Assembly: GCA_021828245.1 (NCBI GenBank)
Contig: JAKASC010000002.1
Coordinates: 1-34,577 of the forward strand
Length of the DNA: 34,577 nucleotides
Reading direction: 5' to 3'
Source of the DNA: Acidobacteriota bacterium
GTDB taxonomy: Bacteria; Acidobacteriota; Terriglobia; UBA7540
In this document: piece after piece, positions 2,547 to 10,701 of the stretch
Position numbering within the stretch: the first letter of the stretch is position 1
Layout of the letters: each line of letters opens with the position of its first letter
Translations under genes and position numbers: made by a program
The notes under the pieces: model-generated
The model's database searches: none
What the model was told of the DNA's origin: nothing
Seen by the model: the letters and a program-made list of their open reading frames with translations, nothing else

Positions 2547-2623
2547 CGGGGCGTGGCGCAGCCTGGTAGCGCGCTTGCCTTGGGCGCAAGAGGTCGAGAG
2601 TTCAAATCTCTCCGCCCCGACCA
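2547..2623 (+). tRNA. tRNA-Pro (anticodon TGG)
   Basis: Cloverleaf by eye: acceptor CGGGGCG/CGCCCCG, D-arm GCGCAGCCTGGTAGCGC, anticodon stem CTTGC/GCAAG with loop CTTGGGC, T-arm GAGAG-TTCAAAT-CTCTC, encoded CCA. Confidence 0.95.
2579..2623 (+). repeat. Left att direct repeat (3' half of tRNA-Pro)
   Basis: CTTGGGCGCAAGAGGTC-GAGAG-TTCAAAT-CTCTC-CGCCCCGACCA; matches 10473-10517 at 37 of 45 positions, all mismatches in the T-stem. Confidence 0.88.
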
Positions 2624-2640: not shown

Positions 2641-3903
2641 TCATTGAATTACAGTTTCCTTTTTTGGTAATACTTCATTAGATTTGGGCACATTTGGGCA
2701 CAAAACCTCGGCGACCTTCTCGACCGCCGCCCGCTCCGCCGCCTCGACACGATGCATATAACGCATGCCCGTTTCGAGGTCGGCGTGACCAAGCAAGCCT
2801 TGCACCAACTCCGGCGCAATGCCGTGATTGCCCGCCATCGTGCGGAACGTGTGCCGCAATGAGTGCCAGCCAAAGCGCGGAAGGCCGAGACCGTCACAGG
2901 CAGGCTCGACTTGACGCCGCATCAAATCGCGGTCATTCAAAACCGTGCCCGCCTGAGACGCGAAAAGCCATTCCGAGTTTACAGCACGATCCTTTAGGTA
3001 AGCCGCAAGCCGCGCCACCACAGGCGAAGCCAGAGGAATTGTCCGCTCGCTTCGCTGTGTTTTCGGGCTGCCGACCGTGCCCCGATAGACGCCGCGCCGA
3101 ACCGAGAGCATGTTGCGCTCAAAATCAACATCGGAAACTTTGAGGCCCAACAGCTCTCCAATTCGCAGCCCTGTAGCGACCCCAAGCCCGAAGATCGTTC
3201 TTGAAGGCTCCGGCAGGACCCCCAAGAGCCTTCGGACTTCATCGGCGGACAAGATGCGGCTTTCCCGCCGCCGCTCGGCCGGCGGAAGTTTAACGCCGCT
3301 CGCGGGATTGGCTTCCACCATCCCCCAGGAAATCGCCGTCGAGAAAAGAGCACTCAACAAATTGCGGAGATGGGAAAGGGTTTCAGTGGACAAGCCGGCC
3401 GACTGTTTCAGCGCGATGAACCGCTGGACCTCCACGCGCTGAACCTCTGCCAGCTTGCGAACGCCGAAGTAAGGAAGCAGGTGATTTTTGAAAAGCGATT
3501 GGTAAGTTTTCCGACCAGAGACTTTCAGGGTTGGGAGAATTTCCGGCTCATAGTACCGACTCCAGAAATCCTCCAGTGTGATGTCCATGCGCGGACGGCA
3601 AGCCCCCTGGTTCACAGGGCGAAGATAAGTTTCCGCCGCGCGTCGTGCCTCTTTCTTCGAGGCAAACGCGCCGAGAACTACCGAGCGATGACGGCGACAT
3701 AATCGTCCATCAGGGGTCAGATAATCCTCACGGAAACGCAGCTCCCAATTCCTACCGCGCAAACGAAGATATCCCTTCTGAAAACGTGGACGGCTCACGG
3801 GTAGAATCCTTTCCCCCGTGTTTTGCCACGTCCCTTCTGCCGCGCTTATGGTATCACAAGAAAACATTTCCCGAACGGCTCCATCAAGTCCCATCACGTT
3901 CAA
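2641..3903 (-). CDS. Tyrosine recombinase / phage-type integrase
   Basis: Catalytic motifs [54 protein letters not shown] start overlaps the upstream stop, or ATG at 3894. Confidence 0.95.
2683..2702 (+). repeat. Perfect tandem decamer TTTGGGCACA x2, candidate integrase arm-type sites (left)
   Basis: TTTGGGCACATTTGGGCACA about 100 bp inside the left att; similar pair at 10378-10398. Confidence 0.6.
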
Positions 3904-4379
3904 AACGGCACGTCATCGTCGGAAACTTCCAACCCGTGCGCGTTCACAAACGCGCCGGGCTTTTCAAGCTGCAATTCCAAGCCCGCATCCGCCAACTTCG
4001 CCAGAATGTCCGTCAGGGGCGGCACGTGATACCCTTGCGGCTCTGCCATCCGCCAGTTCAGGTCTCTCAGGTAGGCCCGGAAGAATTGCCCCGCGTTCGT
4101 CACCACGCTCACCGGAGCCACAGCAAACGGCGCTTGCTTGGGCTGATAGGAAACCAGCCGGACGCCCGGCGGCAAGGCGGCCTTGATTTCTTCGAGTGTG
4201 GGCGGCTGACTTTCTGAGTCCCGAAGCAACGCCTTGATCGCTTCCTTGTCGCGCTTGATGGCTTCCAAAAGCTCGCGGGCTTCGGGGCAGTCAGGCAAAC
4301 GATAGGGCAGCTTGTTACCCTGCAAAGTCAGCTCCCCGCCGAGTTCCCGAACACTATCGAGAATCTCCCCTGTGGTCAT
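3900..4379 (-). CDS. Hypothetical protein with TubC N-terminal docking-like domain
   Basis: N-terminus ILDSVRELGGELTLQGNKLPYRLPDCPEARELLEAIKRDKEAIKALLRD resembles TubC_N-type domains; start overlaps the upstream stop (ATGA). Confidence 0.65.
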   Translation of the reverse strand: MTTGEILDSVRELGGELTLQGNKLPYRLPDCPEARELLEAIKRDKEAIKALLRDSESQPPTLEEIKAALPPGVRLVSYQPKQAPFAVAPVSVVTNAGQFFRAYLRDLNWRMAEPQGYHVPPLTDILAKLADAGLELQLEKPGAFVNAHGLEVSDDDVPF

Positions 4380-4945
4380 ACGGTCACCTCGGCAAACTTT
4401 CCGTCAGCGGTTTGAATCTCACCGGTCAGAAGAATTTGCTCGGCCATTCGCGCGCGCCCTTCGGCATCCGCCTCCAGCCAGCGCCGCCGCTCGGCTATCG
4501 CGCCATGACAAAGCAGGGCGTATTCCACGGCGAGGCGCGGTTGTTGCTGGTAAACCAGCGCCAGGGCGTCCCACGTCTGCGGATGTTCCGGCCTGCATTC
4601 GTGGGCCATCAATTCGAGCCGCCCAAGCTCACGCAGCGCTTCGGCGGCGCGCCGGCGAGCCTCTCCGCACGCCGCGACAAACTGCCGCGCGGCGCGTTCG
4701 GCTTGCTCGCGGGCTTTTTGCTGGCGGATGTAATCGGCCTTCGGAATGCGCTGATATACACCAAGCTCTTTCGCTAGAGTGACGGAATTTCCTTTCGACC
4801 CGCACTTATGGCAGTAGAAGCATTCCGCCGTGTGAGTAACCGTCCGCAGTCCGCCGCACTTGGGGCAGTCGTGCCGGTTGCCGCGTGGCCGCGCGCCCGC
4901 CATTTCGAGCAACGTGCTTATGTCGTATTGGGTCCTTGTACTCAC
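4376..4945 (-). CDS. CHC2-type zinc-finger (DNA primase-like) protein
   Basis: CPKCGGLRTVTHTAECFYCHKCGSKGNSVTLAKEL; GTG start at 4945 overlaps the stop of the upstream ORF (GTGA), so the longer ORF start in the track is rejected. Confidence 0.75.
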   Translation of the reverse strand: MSTRTQYDISTLLEMAGARPRGNRHDCPKCGGLRTVTHTAECFYCHKCGSKGNSVTLAKELGVYQRIPKADYIRQQKAREQAERAARQFVAACGEARRRAAEALRELGRLELMAHECRPEHPQTWDALALVYQQQPRLAVEYALLCHGAIAERRRWLEADAEGRARMAEQILLTGEIQTADGKFAEVTV

Positions 4946-5349
4946 TGCTTTGCCTCCGGCAGGTTGCCCCACCACCAGGACTTCACCAGGTGCGGCGCCG
5001 CCGGCGGATGGCACGTTGCACAGACGAGCGCGCCGTGGGTCGAATGCCACCATAACCAACCCCGGCAGGCCGGGCACTGCGCCCGCTCCGGGAAGTCGGC
5101 GCCGGGGATAGAAACCCAGCCCGCAGGCGTGTCACGGGAGCTTTCTTCGTTAAATTCGTAACCCCCCGCCAGCGAGTTTTGGGGTGCAACATCGTGTTGC
5201 AACAAGGGCGACACGAAAGAGAGCGGATGCAACACGCTTTTTTGGCCCGGTGTCGCAGCGCGTCGCGTCGCCGTGTTGCGCTCTAAGACCTTGAAAGCAC
5301 TACCTTTTAACCCTGTGTGTTGCATGGGTGTTGCATCACGGTGTTGCAT
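4942..5349 (-). CDS. Small putative zinc-ribbon protein
   Basis: CPACRGWLWWHSTHGALVCATC double CxxC; coupled to the downstream CHC2 gene; start placed at MQHRDATP because the upstream part overlaps the repA-like gene. Confidence 0.6.
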   Translation of the reverse strand: MQHRDATPMQHTGLKGSAFKVLERNTATRRAATPGQKSVLHPLSFVSPLLQHDVAPQNSLAGGYEFNEESSRDTPAGWVSIPGADFPERAQCPACRGWLWWHSTHGALVCATCHPPAAPHLVKSWWWGNLPEAKQ

Positions 5350-5405
5350 GGAAATTACCCTCCTGTTGCATGTTTTCGGTGTTAGGGGGTGCGACAGTGC
5401 AACAT
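5185..5405. repeat. Iteron-like cluster of TGTTGCA motifs
   Basis: Eight exact TGTTGCA/TGCAACA copies (5185, 5195, 5228, 5318, 5329, 5342, 5364, 5398) plus one near match (5273); GTGTTGCAT direct copies at 5317, 5328, 5341. Confidence 0.7.
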
Positions 5406-6391
5406 CAGCCACCTCGCGCCTCCGACCGGGCCAAAATGCGGTACACAGTACTGCGGTTGACCCGCAGCTCCTCAGCGATGTCCCGTTTCGGCATTCCGGC
5501 GTCCGCCAGCTCGCGGACGCGCGCCGCGAGGCTCTGCTGCAAGGGGGAGTACGCCCATCTGACGCCGCCACCGTCCACGGCTTCAAGCCTTGCATCAAGA
5601 GGCTGGAACTCGGCGCAGAGGGCTCGGCTTTTTTCGATATGAATTTCAAACCGGGCAGGGCCGCTCGCCCCGCCATCGGCAGGCGGGCGCAGAGCGAGCA
5701 CAGCATCGAGCACGTCTTCGCGCTTGGACGTGCCTCGCTGCTGACCATCTTTTCCAGCATGATGTAGAAAAATAACTGAGCGCCCGGCCACCCGCTGCGC
5801 GAGCGCCCAGCTCGCAACCGGCAGCCAACTCTCAGCCTCATTCTCCCGCCCTTCGCCGCGAACCAGAGACGAAAGCGAGTCCACGACAATTAAGCCCGTG
5901 TCGTCCGGCATAACCTCCGCTAGGGCCGCTTGCCCGCCGATGGTCGCTAAATCCGGCATAAACCCCTGTTGCAAGTCTGGCGTAACGACGTTCAGCATGC
6001 CCGGCGCCGGCTCAGTCTCAGAGCCGGCCGCTACAGCGGCCAGCCGCTCTTGAAGTGCGCCGCTTAACATTTCGCCATCGAGGTAAAGGACCTTGCGCGG
6101 CCGGCTACACTTCCAGCCAAGCAATTCGCCCCCGGCAGCAACGGCGTAGGCAAGGCTTAGCGCGAGATAGGTTTTGCCGGTGCCCCGTTTCCCGTAAATC
6201 ATGTTGAGGGACTGGCCGAGCAACCATGGCGAAAGCAGTACTTCTCGCGGCGGGATGGCCATACCCAGAAACAAGTGAATGTCAACCACCCGCAAAGGCG
6301 CCCGATCCGGCGACCCCGCCCAGCGGCTGCCAGGCCCCGGCGGGCGCCTACCGAACTCCCCGACAGCGCCAAGGAACTCAGACTCAGCCAC
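5405..6391 (-). CDS. RepA-like AAA/RecA-fold ATPase (AAA_25 type) with C-terminal HTH
   Basis: Walker A YGKRGTGKTYLALSLA, Walker B GLIVVDSLSSLV, SVIFLHHAGKDGQQRGTS; C-terminal PKRDIAEELRVNRSTVYRILAR. Confidence 0.85.
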   Translation of the reverse strand: MAESEFLGAVGEFGRRPPGPGSRWAGSPDRAPLRVVDIHLFLGMAIPPREVLLSPWLLGQSLNMIYGKRGTGKTYLALSLAYAVAAGGELLGWKCSRPRKVLYLDGEMLSGALQERLAAVAAGSETEPAPGMLNVVTPDLQQGFMPDLATIGGQAALAEVMPDDTGLIVVDSLSSLVRGEGRENEAESWLPVASWALAQRVAGRSVIFLHHAGKDGQQRGTSKREDVLDAVLALRPPADGGASGPARFEIHIEKSRALCAEFQPLDARLEAVDGGGVRWAYSPLQQSLAARVRELADAGMPKRDIAEELRVNRSTVYRILARSEARGG

Positions 6392-6620
6392 GCCGCACCC
6401 CCGCGCGCCGGCGACGGGACGCCGCGCCGAACAAAGCGCCTTGAGAAACGCCTAACGCCTCGGAGATCAATCGCCGCTCCCGCGCCCGGAATGGCCGACG
6501 CCCGTTGAGTAACCTCGACAGAACTTCGCGGCGCAGGCCGCACTGTCGTGCAAGCTCGGCGATCGACAATTTCCTTCTCCACAAGGTGGTTCTGATTTTG
6601 ATAATATCCTTCGCACGCAT
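6384..6620 (-). CDS. XRE-family HTH regulator
   Basis: KLSIAELARQCGLRREVLSRLLNGRRPFRARERRLISEALGVSQGALFG; first plausible ATG at 6620. Confidence 0.75.
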   Translation of the reverse strand: MRAKDIIKIRTTLWRRKLSIAELARQCGLRREVLSRLLNGRRPFRARERRLISEALGVSQGALFGAASRRRRAGVRRG

Positions 6621-7272
6621 GGGCAAAAGATCACACGCACGTGGCCGATTGTCACGGACAGCAAACGCCGCCTTCGTGTCCCGAGCGCCGAGCCAACGGC
6701 GGACGCCAAAACTGCCGGTTGGCGCGGCTCCATCTGCCTGGGAGCGGAAACTCGACGCCGAATTTTTAGCCTTCGTTCGATCGTTTTCCAATTCCCGAAA
6801 GTTGCTGATGGCGGGCCAGCAGCGCTACGCCCAACGGTTTCTCGCAAAGGCATTGCCACAACTCTTAAAGGGCCTCCAAGGGAACGCTGCTAGGATGGGC
6901 GTGTCGGTTGACAACTGCCTGGCCTTCTTCCTGTGCTGGGATAAATATCAGGTCCGCCTAGACAGGCTGATAGAAAAGACTCAGCGCCAGTACGACCTAA
7001 AAGCGTATGACCGACTCGCCTGGGTCGGTCGCGCGCTCTACAAGCTCCACTGGGGTCAGTTCAATTTGAAAACGGAGCTTCGCAGTAAATCGGGAGAGCC
7101 TCATAATCTTTTGATGACTTGCGGACTGCTCTTAGGGCAATTACAGAGACTCTCCGGCGAAGAACTTCTCGGTTTCTTTGACGCCGTATGCTCGTGCAGG
7201 AAGGAGAACGCGCACACTCTGGACGCTTTGACGAAGTTGCGGAATAGAGTACGTAAGAGGCTGCTTGAGTGA
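6619..7272 (+). CDS. Hypothetical protein, candidate element cargo
   Basis: Long ORF opposite in orientation to the int-rep operon; start uncertain (MGKRSHARGR or downstream); no recognised domain. Confidence 0.6.
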   Translation: MGKRSHARGRLSRTANAAFVSRAPSQRRTPKLPVGAAPSAWERKLDAEFLAFVRSFSNSRKLLMAGQQRYAQRFLAKALPQLLKGLQGNAARMGVSVDNCLAFFLCWDKYQVRLDRLIEKTQRQYDLKAYDRLAWVGRALYKLHWGQFNLKTELRSKSGEPHNLLMTCGLLLGQLQRLSGEELLGFFDAVCSCRKENAHTLDALTKLRNRVRKRLLE

Positions 7273-7317: not shown

Positions 7318-7677
7318 ATGACGGAGTACGACCCTAAAATAATTCTCCAGTTTGCCGACCGGCTCTATGCGAGTGCGGCGCAAATCGTCGCTGAGACCAT
7401 AGCGCTTTATGCTGTTGTCGCCGCGATAGCGGGCTACATCGTTGGGTCGCTTCTTGTCCGTTTTTACGGCTCCCCTGCCTTTGCGGCCGATCCAACAACT
7501 CACCTCGTCCTCGCCGGTTTTGCGGTCGGAGCCGTGATCGGCATTTTTGTAGGCCGAGAAAAAGCCTTCAGGCTAAAGTTGCAGGCTCAGATGGCTCTTG
7601 TCCAGCTCAAGATCGAAGAAAACACGCGGCCGGCGGGCGATGTTAGTGAGACTCCTAGCGTAGTTCGTCCTCAATGA
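7318..7677 (+). CDS. Small membrane protein of unknown function
   Basis: Two hydrophobic segments (ETIALYAVVAAIAGYIVGSLLV, HLVLAGFAVGAVIGIFVG); GGAGGTG upstream of ATG; follows the previous ORF. Confidence 0.65.
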   Translation: MTEYDPKIILQFADRLYASAAQIVAETIALYAVVAAIAGYIVGSLLVRFYGSPAFAADPTTHLVLAGFAVGAVIGIFVGREKAFRLKLQAQMALVQLKIEENTRPAGDVSETPSVVRPQ

Positions 7678-8929
7678 TTTCGTGCACGAATTCTTTAAGT
7701 TCCTGAGTATCCTCATCGCCCGTCAGCTCTTCTTCGAGCGCATCCCTGACGGCATCCGTAACGTCGGCAGCGAAACGAGAATCCCAAAACGCCTCGCTTG
7801 AAATTTCTCCCTCGCTTCTCAAATGCAAAAGGTATGAAGAGACTTCTACCAGCCCTTGCTGGATGAGCGCTGCTTTCCGCTGCTTTCTTTCCTTGCGCGC
7901 CTCGCGCTGCTCGATTTCGGCTTGTACCTCGCGGACTGGCGGCCGCAATACTTCTTTCGCCTCGACCTCCGAAACGTCCGGGGGCAATCCGGCCAGAATC
8001 TCGACGCACTGGCGGCGAAGCCGCGCTTCGTCTTGCTCCGTCCGACCCCATGGGAGCTCGCGAATCGCCCACTCAATAAGTCGCTCATCAAGCAAACGTT
8101 TTTCCGCCGCCTGCTTAATCGGCTGGATGGCCTCATTCGCGGCCGCGCGGATTTCAAATTCTTCGGCCTCGAGCGGCAAAGCGCCCAACGCCTCGCGGAT
8201 TGCGGCCGCTGCCCTCGAACGCTCTAGTTCGGTGCAAAATAATGGCAGAGTGAAAAGCGCCGAGTTGGTCGCCCGCTCGCGCGCCTCGCGGCCTTCCCGT
8301 TCGACTTTCCACGGCGCCATCAGCGCGCCGACAGTATCCTCGATAAGCTGATCCATGAACCGCTCAGACTCAGGCCCGCGCTTAGCGACCTCAACTTCAA
8401 GGGCTTGGACTGCTTCCTTGCGCTGCCCGGGCGAGAGCCAGTAAGGGAGCCTCGCCGTTGCATTCTCAAGCCACTTCGCGCGCCACATGGCGAGCCGTTC
8501 GGCCTGCTGGCGCTCTTGCTCCTGCTGCTGACTACGAAGGCGAACGCGCTCGAGTCGGAGCCGTTGTGCTTCAGCCTCACGACTCGCCGCGCGCTCCTGG
8601 GCCTGGGCCTCCTCCTGTCGCCTGCGGGCCTCGGCTTCCTGGTCGGCCTGCAACTTGGCAATCTCGCGCTTGGCCCTCAATTCTTGGGCCTCAAGTCCAA
8701 GTTCTTCCACACGCTCACGGCGATTCTGTAGCACGCTGGATGCGGGCGGGAAATTTAGAGCGGGCCTCGGCGCGCGTGTATTGACCAAACTCTCAGCCGT
8801 GACTCGCAAGTGGCCGCCAGGCGTCCTAAAAGTCTCAATCCGGCCATCGTGGGCCATGCGCTTAAGCGTCGGAATCGAAACCCCCAGGGCGCGCGCGGCC
8901 TCACTGACAGAATAGGATTCTTCACGCAT
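7655..8929 (-). CDS. HTH (MerR/excisionase-like) protein with long charged coiled-coil
   Basis: MREESYSVSEAARALGVSIPTLKRMAHDGRIETFRTPGGHLRV; followed by an extended E/Q/R-rich helical region; start at 8929 chosen because the preceding codons are repeat-derived. Confidence 0.75.
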   Translation of the reverse strand: MREESYSVSEAARALGVSIPTLKRMAHDGRIETFRTPGGHLRVTAESLVNTRAPRPALNFPPASSVLQNRRERVEELGLEAQELRAKREIAKLQADQEAEARRRQEEAQAQERAASREAEAQRLRLERVRLRSQQQEQERQQAERLAMWRAKWLENATARLPYWLSPGQRKEAVQALEVEVAKRGPESERFMDQLIEDTVGALMAPWKVEREGREARERATNSALFTLPLFCTELERSRAAAAIREALGALPLEAEEFEIRAAANEAIQPIKQAAEKRLLDERLIEWAIRELPWGRTEQDEARLRRQCVEILAGLPPDVSEVEAKEVLRPPVREVQAEIEQREARKERKQRKAALIQQGLVEVSSYLLHLRSEGEISSEAFWDSRFAADVTDAVRDALEEELTGDEDTQELKEFVHEIIEDELR

Positions 8930-8946
8930 AACGGCTACCCCATCAT

Positions 8947-9046
8947 CGGTTTTTGTCGATTTTTTTACCGATTTTTGATACCGATTTTTCACGATTTTTG
9001 CAGGTTTCGCCCGTGCGGATTTTCACGATTTTTTGCGATTTTTTTC
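8947..9046. repeat. Phased CGATTTTT tracts, iteron-like or curved DNA
   Basis: CGAT(T)n at 8957, 8969, 8982, 8992, 9026, 9036 plus CGGATTTT at 9016 and CGGTTTTT at 8947; T-tract centres mostly 10-13 bp apart. Confidence 0.75.
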
Positions 9047-9070: not shown

Positions 9071-9337
9071 TTAAATGCCGAGCGTTTTGCGGACCTTACG
9101 CCGTTCTTTCTTGGCCCACTTCCGGGCCAAGTCGAACAAAAAGACTGCCCCCAAAACTGCCAGGGCGACTTGCCCAAAGGTGGGCGCGCCGCCGAACAGT
9201 TCATGTTCCAACTCGGCGCGGAAGCCGAAAGCGGGGCTTGTGGCTGGCGGCGTTGGGAACGGCGAATAATCGCCGAGCGCTGGCACGTAGGTGTTGCGCA
9301 ACGGGTCAAAGGCCATCAAAATGAATGGACGTTTCAT
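9071..9337 (-). CDS. Small membrane-anchored protein
   Basis: MKRPFILMAFDPLRNTYVPALGDYSPFP...VALAVLGAVFLFDLARKWAKKERRKVRK; start codon overlaps the HNH stop (TGATG). Confidence 0.6.
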   Translation of the reverse strand: MKRPFILMAFDPLRNTYVPALGDYSPFPTPPATSPAFGFRAELEHELFGGAPTFGQVALAVLGAVFLFDLARKWAKKERRKVRKTLGI

Positions 9338-9768
9338 CACTTCCCATGCGCCCGACGCCGCCGCCAAATTTCCTTGGCGAATTTACTGCGGCGTTCGGGC
9401 GGCGTTTCGTGAATCACCAGGCCACCCGGATCGTGCTCGCCGCGCCGATGTTCCACGGCGGCCTGAACGTATTGGGCGAGCGTCTCGGCGCCCGGGTTGA
9501 ACTGCCGCGTGCGGCGGCCTTCGCCCGCCCGCGCCATCGCCAAGCCCAAGCGGGTATTACAGCCTTTGCAAAGCCAGCGGAGATTTCCCGGCGCGTCGTT
9601 GTGCTCATCGCCATCCCGGTGGTCAATCACCAGAAAGCGCCGCGAACCACAAAGCGCGCATCGGCGCGGACCACGCGGAATGCATTGCTGCGCTCGATAC
9701 CGGTGGGCGCGGTCCGTAATCTGCTCGCCCCGCTTGCGCCAGCGAAGCCCGCAAGCGGGAGCCGTCAT
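9337..9768 (-). CDS. HNH endonuclease family protein
   Basis: CALCGSRRFLVIDHRDGDEHNDAPGNLRWLCKGCNTRLG: zinc Cys pairs plus DH-N-H-type core. Confidence 0.88.
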   Translation of the reverse strand: MTAPACGLRWRKRGEQITDRAHRYRAQQCIPRGPRRCALCGSRRFLVIDHRDGDEHNDAPGNLRWLCKGCNTRLGLAMARAGEGRRTRQFNPGAETLAQYVQAAVEHRRGEHDPGGLVIHETPPERRSKFAKEIWRRRRAHGK

Positions 9769-10472: not shown

Positions 10473-10517
10473 CTTGGGCGCAAGAGGTCCCCGGTTCAAA
10501 TCCGGGCGCCCCGACCA
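10473..10517 (+). repeat. Right att: displaced 3' fragment of tRNA-Pro
   Basis: CTTGGGCGCAAGAGGTC-CCCGG-TTCAAAT-CCGGG-CGCCCCGACCA with no D-arm or 5' acceptor upstream. Confidence 0.88.
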
Positions 10518-10701
10518 ATTGCTGATAGTTTGCGTAGCTTACCTGCTTCCAAATCCTTTCAAAGAAGGCTTCCCCTAAGCCCGCACGCTTGCTGGGCGCT
10601 CGAAGAATTCCAGCCTCCATCAAGTCGGGAGAAGTTGGGTGGGGCTGACGGCGAGTTTCGTAAAGGCAACCGCAGGATCAGGCGCTGTTCTTGCGTCCCG
10701 C

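Follow-up and report, generated by a model that had tools for sequence, protein, structure and literature searches.

The repeated GTGTTGCAT motif very probably marks where a small integrated mobile element starts its replication. Its array is likely to be the replication origin of a satellite-like element, on which the element's RepA-type helicase would dock through its own helix-turn-helix (HTH) domain.

The repeat array and its integrated element

In the window (the whole 34.6 kb stretch of DNA analysed here), TGTTGCA occurs nine times within 5185-5404, five copies being direct and four inverted. The initial annotation had listed eight; its five direct copies stand, and one inverted copy must be added to its three, probably that at 5198-5204, which overlaps 5195-5201. 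The TGCAACA-TCG-TGTTGCA palindrome it described at 5185-5201 is present, and its spacings of 11, 13 and 22 bp agree with ours. One-mismatch copies of TGTTGCA were found at 5251, 5274, 5332 and 5390. The parts of the array are as follows.

5185-5404: iteron array, with nine exact TGTTGCA/TGCAACA copies and one-mismatch copies
5195, 5318, 5329, 5342 and 5364, plus strand: TGTTGCA copies
5185, 5198, 5228 and 5398, minus strand: TGTTGCA copies
5185-5234: outer cluster, formed by the TGCAACA-TCG-TGTTGCA palindrome and two further inverted copies
5251-5280, plus strand: second iteron set, degenerate in the window (TGTCGCA 5251-5257, TGTTGCG 5274-5280)
5281-5317: iteron-free gap, a candidate melting region; in 18 of 21 relatives the A+T content of the gap exceeds that of the remaining array
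5318-5348, plus strand: direct iteron triplet (5318, 5329, 5342) with spacings of 11 and 13 bp; the triplet-gap-triplet arrangement also occurs in relatives

Multiple short repeats thus lie beside the gene of the proposed initiator, beyond what chance would give. The whole window holds 11 copies of TGTTGCA, against 3.2 ± 1.7 expected; in the 800-bp region 4900-5700, nine were counted against 0.17 expected, and the maximum in 2000 dinucleotide-preserving shuffles of this region was three. TGTTGCA exceeds all other 7-mers of the window by count per 221 bp, and in whole-window shuffles a count of nine was reached only by CG-dinucleotide words such as CGCGCGC. From the triplet at 5318, 5329 and 5342, TGTTGCG follows 44 bp on at 5274, and TGTCGCA comes next, at 5251. 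The A+T content of the gap (5284-5319) is 58%, compared with 40% for the element. The window copy may be partly decayed, its second iteron set being degenerate. TGCAACA copies are mixed with TGCGACA copies (5251-5257, 5390-5396) in the window, and the near relatives L001 and L002 (helix DRSTVYR) carry mainly TGCGACA; the mixture is possibly a motif switch in progress. A search for the spaced TGTTGCAT pair gave no match in the window's own genome, an uninformative result; the host assembly is 57% complete.

The array had been proposed as a plasmid oriV; it lies instead in an integrated, satellite-like element of ~7.9 kb at tRNA-Pro, an integration that goes beyond the initial annotation. The element has the attributes of site-specific integration: the tRNA gene, a partial repeat of it at 10473-10520 and an integrase gene.

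2547-2623, plus strand: tRNA-Pro (TGG), attachment-site gene and left end of the element (ARAGORN; Rfam tRNA, 67 bits)
2641-3903, minus strand: tyrosine integrase adjoining the tRNA (Pfam Phage_integrase, 1e-27; PHROG integrase, 8e-74)
4376-4957, minus strand: small protein with a DnaG-like zinc-binding region (weak PHROG DNA primase match, 0.0012; Pfam not significant)
4942-5370, minus strand: downstream open reading frame (ORF) with a C-terminal zinc ribbon (CPACRGW...CATCHPP); start codon uncertain
5405-6391, minus strand: AAA_25/RepA-like helicase with a C-terminal HTH, the proposed origin-binding initiator-helicase
6384-6650, minus strand: XRE/HTH_3 regulator, upstream of the helicase gene (Pfam HTH_3, 6e-7)
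10473-10520, plus strand: partial copy of the tRNA-Pro 3' half at the other element end (48-bp match to 2579-2626, 81% identical)

The tRNA was the only match of the Rfam search. The two tRNA-Pro 3' halves (2547-2626 and 10473-10520) differ mainly in the T-stem, which is changed on both arms (GAGAG/CTCTC versus CCCGG/CCGGG); apparently, the element either brings along a tRNA 3' end whose T-arm differs or has displaced one of that kind. No TOPRIM domain was found in the small protein at 4376-4957, and no TOPRIM or Prim-Pol primase was seen in the window. The zinc ribbon of the ORF at 4942-5370 is Trm112p-like (2.6e-4), just short of the Pfam cut-off. A 445-aa protein (7655-8992, minus strand) combines an N-terminal MerR/HTH_17 excisionase-like domain with a long charged, probably helical region; this protein and the weakly matching DnaG-like zinc protein are the only candidates in the window for regulator and primase of the type found in phage-inducible chromosomal islands (PICIs). 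An HNH/endonuclease VII-like protein (9337-9768, minus strand) is encoded near the right end of the element.

The RepA-like helicase and the array in its relatives

The array starts directly at the stop codon of the helicase gene, on its 3' side. The encoded protein matches Pfam AAA_25 (1e-28) and, at its end, the resolvase-type HTH_7 (4e-8). In its AlphaFold model (pLDDT 84), RSF1010 RepA is the best solved-structure match (Foldseek against 1nlf: E 1.5e-10, TM 0.74 on target length), in agreement with a profile search. A G-x-x-G-x-G-K-T-like P-loop and acidic motifs are conserved; Walker A, Walker B and related motifs are thus present in addition to the RepA fold. DUF927, D5 or P4-alpha-like helicase domains were not found, Pfam and fold both giving AAA_25/RepA; by analogy, the helicase may work like the SaPI and P4-type initiator helicases, without membership of their families. 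Its DNA-binding part comprises the following.

5417-5542, minus strand: C-terminal HTH, residues 284-325 (Pfam; model helices 284-297, 302-309 and 313-325)
5426-5458, minus strand: recognition helix NRSTVYRILAR, residues 312-322

Homologues were collected from GTDB genomes and IMG/VR with the helicase gene as selection criterion, and were reduced to 105 loci of <90% mutual identity. An array was called significant when some 6-mer was over-represented (p ≤ 0.01) in 350 bp. Such an array was detected 3' of the gene in 70 of the 105 homologues and 5' of it in one of 99; by this strict test, 35 of the 105 lack one. The motif varies by element (GCAAC, GGGAC, GAAAC, GGAAC and others, mostly with A or T next), and the sites share a common register, N1-N2-N3-N4-A5-C6-(A/T)7. 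They include [CT]GCAAC[AT], TGCGACA, [CT]GGGACA, GGAACA, TGAAACA, GGAAAC, TGAGACA, TGGACCA and TGCACCA, among others. L014, for example, is of the GGGAC type and has the recognition helix SKSRVSRLQAK. The position of the array is conserved while its sequence is rewritten, a persistence that adds to what the initial annotation had described. That annotation would have counted loss of the motif in homologous elements against an origin. The exact motif is indeed usually lost; such loss would mislead as a refutation, because the array persists, rewritten to match the HTH. The register was fixed after inspection of the data, and the labels of L034 and L103 were assigned by hand; these two labels entered the site-listing, spacing, tree, weak-array and identity-thinning analyses and were not used in the predictor scan or the leave-one-out prediction. 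Rare site types (TGCACCA, TGGACCA, TGACACA, CGCACA) accompany unusual recognition helices in L045, L046, L049, L050, L056 and L064, loci useful for extending the helix-site code. The iteron of L039, GTGAACA, is one that we take to resemble the origin repeat of satellite P4.

The arrangement of sites is quantised. Same-strand neighbours are spaced with peaks at 7-8, 11-12, 21-22 and 43 bp, and inverted neighbours lie 18-19 bp apart; many loci show a triplet, a 43-bp gap and a second triplet. An empty gap of 42-44 bp was observed in 21 of the 70 loci, compared with 8.6 expected under random placement (maximum 17 in 300 trials). The gap between the iteron sets is AT-richer, by a modest margin: its A+T content is 54%, and that of the remaining array 46% (21 relatives, p = 0.001). 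In relatives, as many as 20 sites occur within about 230 bp.

Near the helicase genes, TOPRIM or Prim-Pol primases are encoded in 20 of the 105 relatives, and phage packaging or capsid genes in 17 (L010, L018, L019, L021, L027, L029, L042, L045, L048, L049, L053, L055, L059, L068, L092, L146 and L154). The latter genes include DUF5681, prohead protease, portal and capsid-like genes, and several of these relatives resemble capsid-forming satellites or small prophages. Among plasmid records, the window query gave one partial match, to a Nitrobacter plasmid; two other family members gave the same match and one weak Caldicellulosiruptor match. Phage records yielded nothing beyond distant helicase-domain matches, and L014, when used to scan IMG/VR, gave no relative.

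Coupling of iteron motif and recognition helix

Across the relatives, the array motif tracks the recognition helix of the adjacent helicase. In a scan that treated all 282 variable protein columns alike and favoured none, the best predictors of the motif were S314, N312 and I319, which are positions 3, 1 and 8 of the recognition helix. When the loci were thinned to <70, <60 or <55% helicase identity, helix position 3 always ranked first, position 1 ranked 4-5, and position 8 ranked 2, 12 and 7. Some columns outside the helix (-23, -110) also score high, as is expected from shared ancestry. Pairs of loci with only 40-50% helicase identity and similar recognition helices had the core in common in 88% of 48 cases; among pairs with >60% identity and dissimilar helices, the core was common to none of 12.

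Leave-one-out prediction of the motif, with neighbours limited to <50% helicase identity, succeeded in 57% of cases from the helix contact residues, compared with 19% from the helicase domain and a mean of 14% (maximum 24%) from eight random helicase columns. In 27 weak-array loci kept outside rule-making, 77 predicted sites were found against 20.8 ± 4.3 expected; this gain stems from about half of the 27 loci, and the remainder fail. At the level of single residues, 21 of the 22 loci with C at site position 3 have N, H, D or A at helix position 1, as do four of the 48 loci without that C.

The helicase-domain tree requires at least 26 changes of the core motif. Its supported branches provide 3-5 independent pairs per contrast, too few for significance; nearly all agree in direction, and no contrast is significant. 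An exact-match test of helix positions 1 and 3 in 35 disjoint nearest pairs gave p = 0.09; this sister-pair test is weak because similar residues (N, H, A) act alike. Covariation is an indirect test of whether the repeats are sites for the DNA-binding domain of the adjacent initiator, and by this test, recognition of the iterons by the helicase's own C-terminal HTH is well supported. In about a hundred relatives the repeats and the HTH vary in concert, and their pairing follows a partly readable code.

Origin reading, alternatives and known systems

The reading of the array as a replication origin beside a RepA-like gene, proposed in the initial annotation, remains the best one, with the array conserved 3' of a whole gene family; it is strengthened by the family's resemblance to replicative helicases and by the covariation of the repeats with the protein's own HTH. 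Its closest competitor, which we regard as unlikely, is an operator at which the AAA-HTH protein controls downstream transcription, with no replication from the array. The array does separate the helicase gene from the downstream genes, which share its strand, HTH proteins commonly regulate, and a double role is possible, as in many iteron systems. However, a simple operator would not require as many as 20 sites in ~230 bp, with their quantised spacing and fixed 43-bp gap; in many relatives the array extends into coding sequence; it stands 3' of the gene with none in front; and its proposed binder has a replicative-helicase fold.

Binding by another factor, be it the XRE regulator, the zinc-ribbon protein, AlpA, the integrase or a host factor, is markedly less probable still. 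In the window, the XRE gene and the zinc-ribbon ORF are next to the helicase gene and array, and both had been named as possible binders together with the RepA-like protein. Only the last of these is favoured as the likely binder, through the covariation of its HTH; gene content in the relatives argues against the other two. Integrase genes are present near the helicase in 45 of 105 relatives and AlpA-like regulators in 47 of 105, no neighbouring family approaches all loci, and the motif tracks the helicase's own recognition helix; a host factor would not change its site with the HTH of a mobile element. XRE or zinc-ribbon proteins as a conserved binder were rejected, no other real family occurring near the helicase in more than about half of the 105 loci.

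It is very improbable that the repeat serves to encode a repeated peptide (MQH, ATP, RD or RN) in the small protein downstream and is kept for that peptide. As previously described, the array overlaps the next small ORF, with copies in its 5' part on the minus strand, and the same overlap is seen in several relatives. The window gap encodes the peptide GLKGSAFKVLER, which matches LKALAxxVLxR of relatives. The peptide LKALAxxVLxR[ND] recurs inside the gap across motif classes (window 5281-5317, L009, L011, L014, L018, L019, L021, L038, L044, L091, L092 and L150), and the downstream ORFs differ at their C-termini. Against a peptide repeat, the same 43-bp layout persists in L026, L029, L040 and L042 with a gap that lacks this peptide; moreover, copies lie on both strands, and in 68 of 70 loci the direct copies occupy two or three reading frames. 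This use of both strands and several frames marks the repeat as a feature of the DNA, and the peptide-repeat reading was rejected on these grounds. A functionless array, produced by chance clustering or local low complexity, for which the shortness of the words might speak, has a negligible probability in view of nine copies against 0.17 expected and of the 70 relatives, out of 105, that have an array in the corresponding position.

The best explanation is a rep-ori module of the satellite type whose helicase would dock on its own iterons via the C-terminal HTH. Replication at the array is suggested by the layout and by the SaPI, PICI and PLE precedents. SaPI Rep and SCCmec Cch2 are self-loading initiator helicases of the DUF927 and D5/primase-C-terminal families, and each uses its C-terminal domain to recognise iterons that directly follow its own gene (PMC7581432). 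The window shares with them the helicase C-terminal domain and the short-iteron origin directly downstream of the gene, whereas its helicase is AAA_25/RepA-like with a resolvase-type HTH. In PICIs, the origin directly follows rep on its 3' side and has an AT-rich stretch between two sets of iterons; a construct with pri, rep and ori was assayed there for its maintenance as a plasmid (PMC6092414). The window likewise has two iteron sets around an AT-richer gap immediately 3' of the helicase gene, and relatives have integrase, AlpA and primase genes near the helicase, as in Gram-negative PICIs (int-alpA-pri-rep-ori). Unlike these, the window element has a different helicase family, no recognisable primase or AlpA, and an integrase downstream of the array.

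In the Vibrio cholerae PLE, the RepA DNA-binding domain and the origin covary as an exchangeable module, and replication requires that the two match (PMC8263062). A similar covariation of DNA-binding domain and site is seen here; PLE RepA has an N-terminal RepA_N domain and ~30-bp semi-palindromic iterons, in contrast to the C-terminal HTH and 7-bp sites of the window. RSF1010 RepA provides the best solved-structure matches to the window ATPase domain. In RSF1010, a separate RepC melts oriV before RepA loading (PMC8965321), whereas in the window the helicase and DNA-binding domain are on one chain, to which both functions appear to belong. Iteron specificity and Rep residues also evolve together in geminivirus Rep (PMC12548392), whose iteron-related domain is a precedent for iteron/Rep co-evolution, although it is an unrelated rolling-circle Rep of eukaryotic viruses.

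We propose the following mechanism as the most probable. The RepA-type hexameric helicase (5405-6391, minus strand) would use the resolvase-type HTH at its C-terminus to recognise the iterons, each TGCAACA site being bound by one HTH. Docking of several subunits on the helically phased copies that flank the ~43-bp AT-richer gap would melt the gap and place the helicase ring, with no separate initiator. The array, its position 3' of the gene and persistence in relatives, the coupling of motif and helix, the quantised spacing and the RepA fold are computational results; we infer physical binding, melting, self-loading and replication in this scheme. The recognition helix would set the variable site bases, so that each lineage would keep a matched helicase-iteron pair.

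We also lean towards a broader reading, in which these elements form a large mobile-element replicon class, unrecognised in the open-access literature, with an AAA_25 (RepA-type) helicase that would read adjacent iterons through its own HTH, a partly decodable code and an origin often embedded in the next gene's coding sequence. In this code, N, H, D or A at helix position 1 would specify xGC.., [SKTPG][KR][ST] would specify GGGAC, and A or G at position 3 would favour ..AAC; the class would evolve as many orthogonal initiator-origin pairs. One subgroup thereby gains a specific, testable role, that of origin-reading helicases. For annotation, the origins of such elements should be sought 3' of the AAA_25-HTH gene, and eleven residues allow a partial prediction of the motif. 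The natural matched helix-site pairs allow tests of how helix-turn-helix specificity changes and of how satellites and related elements keep their replicons orthogonal, and they are a possible source of non-cross-reacting origin-initiator pairs for laboratory vectors.
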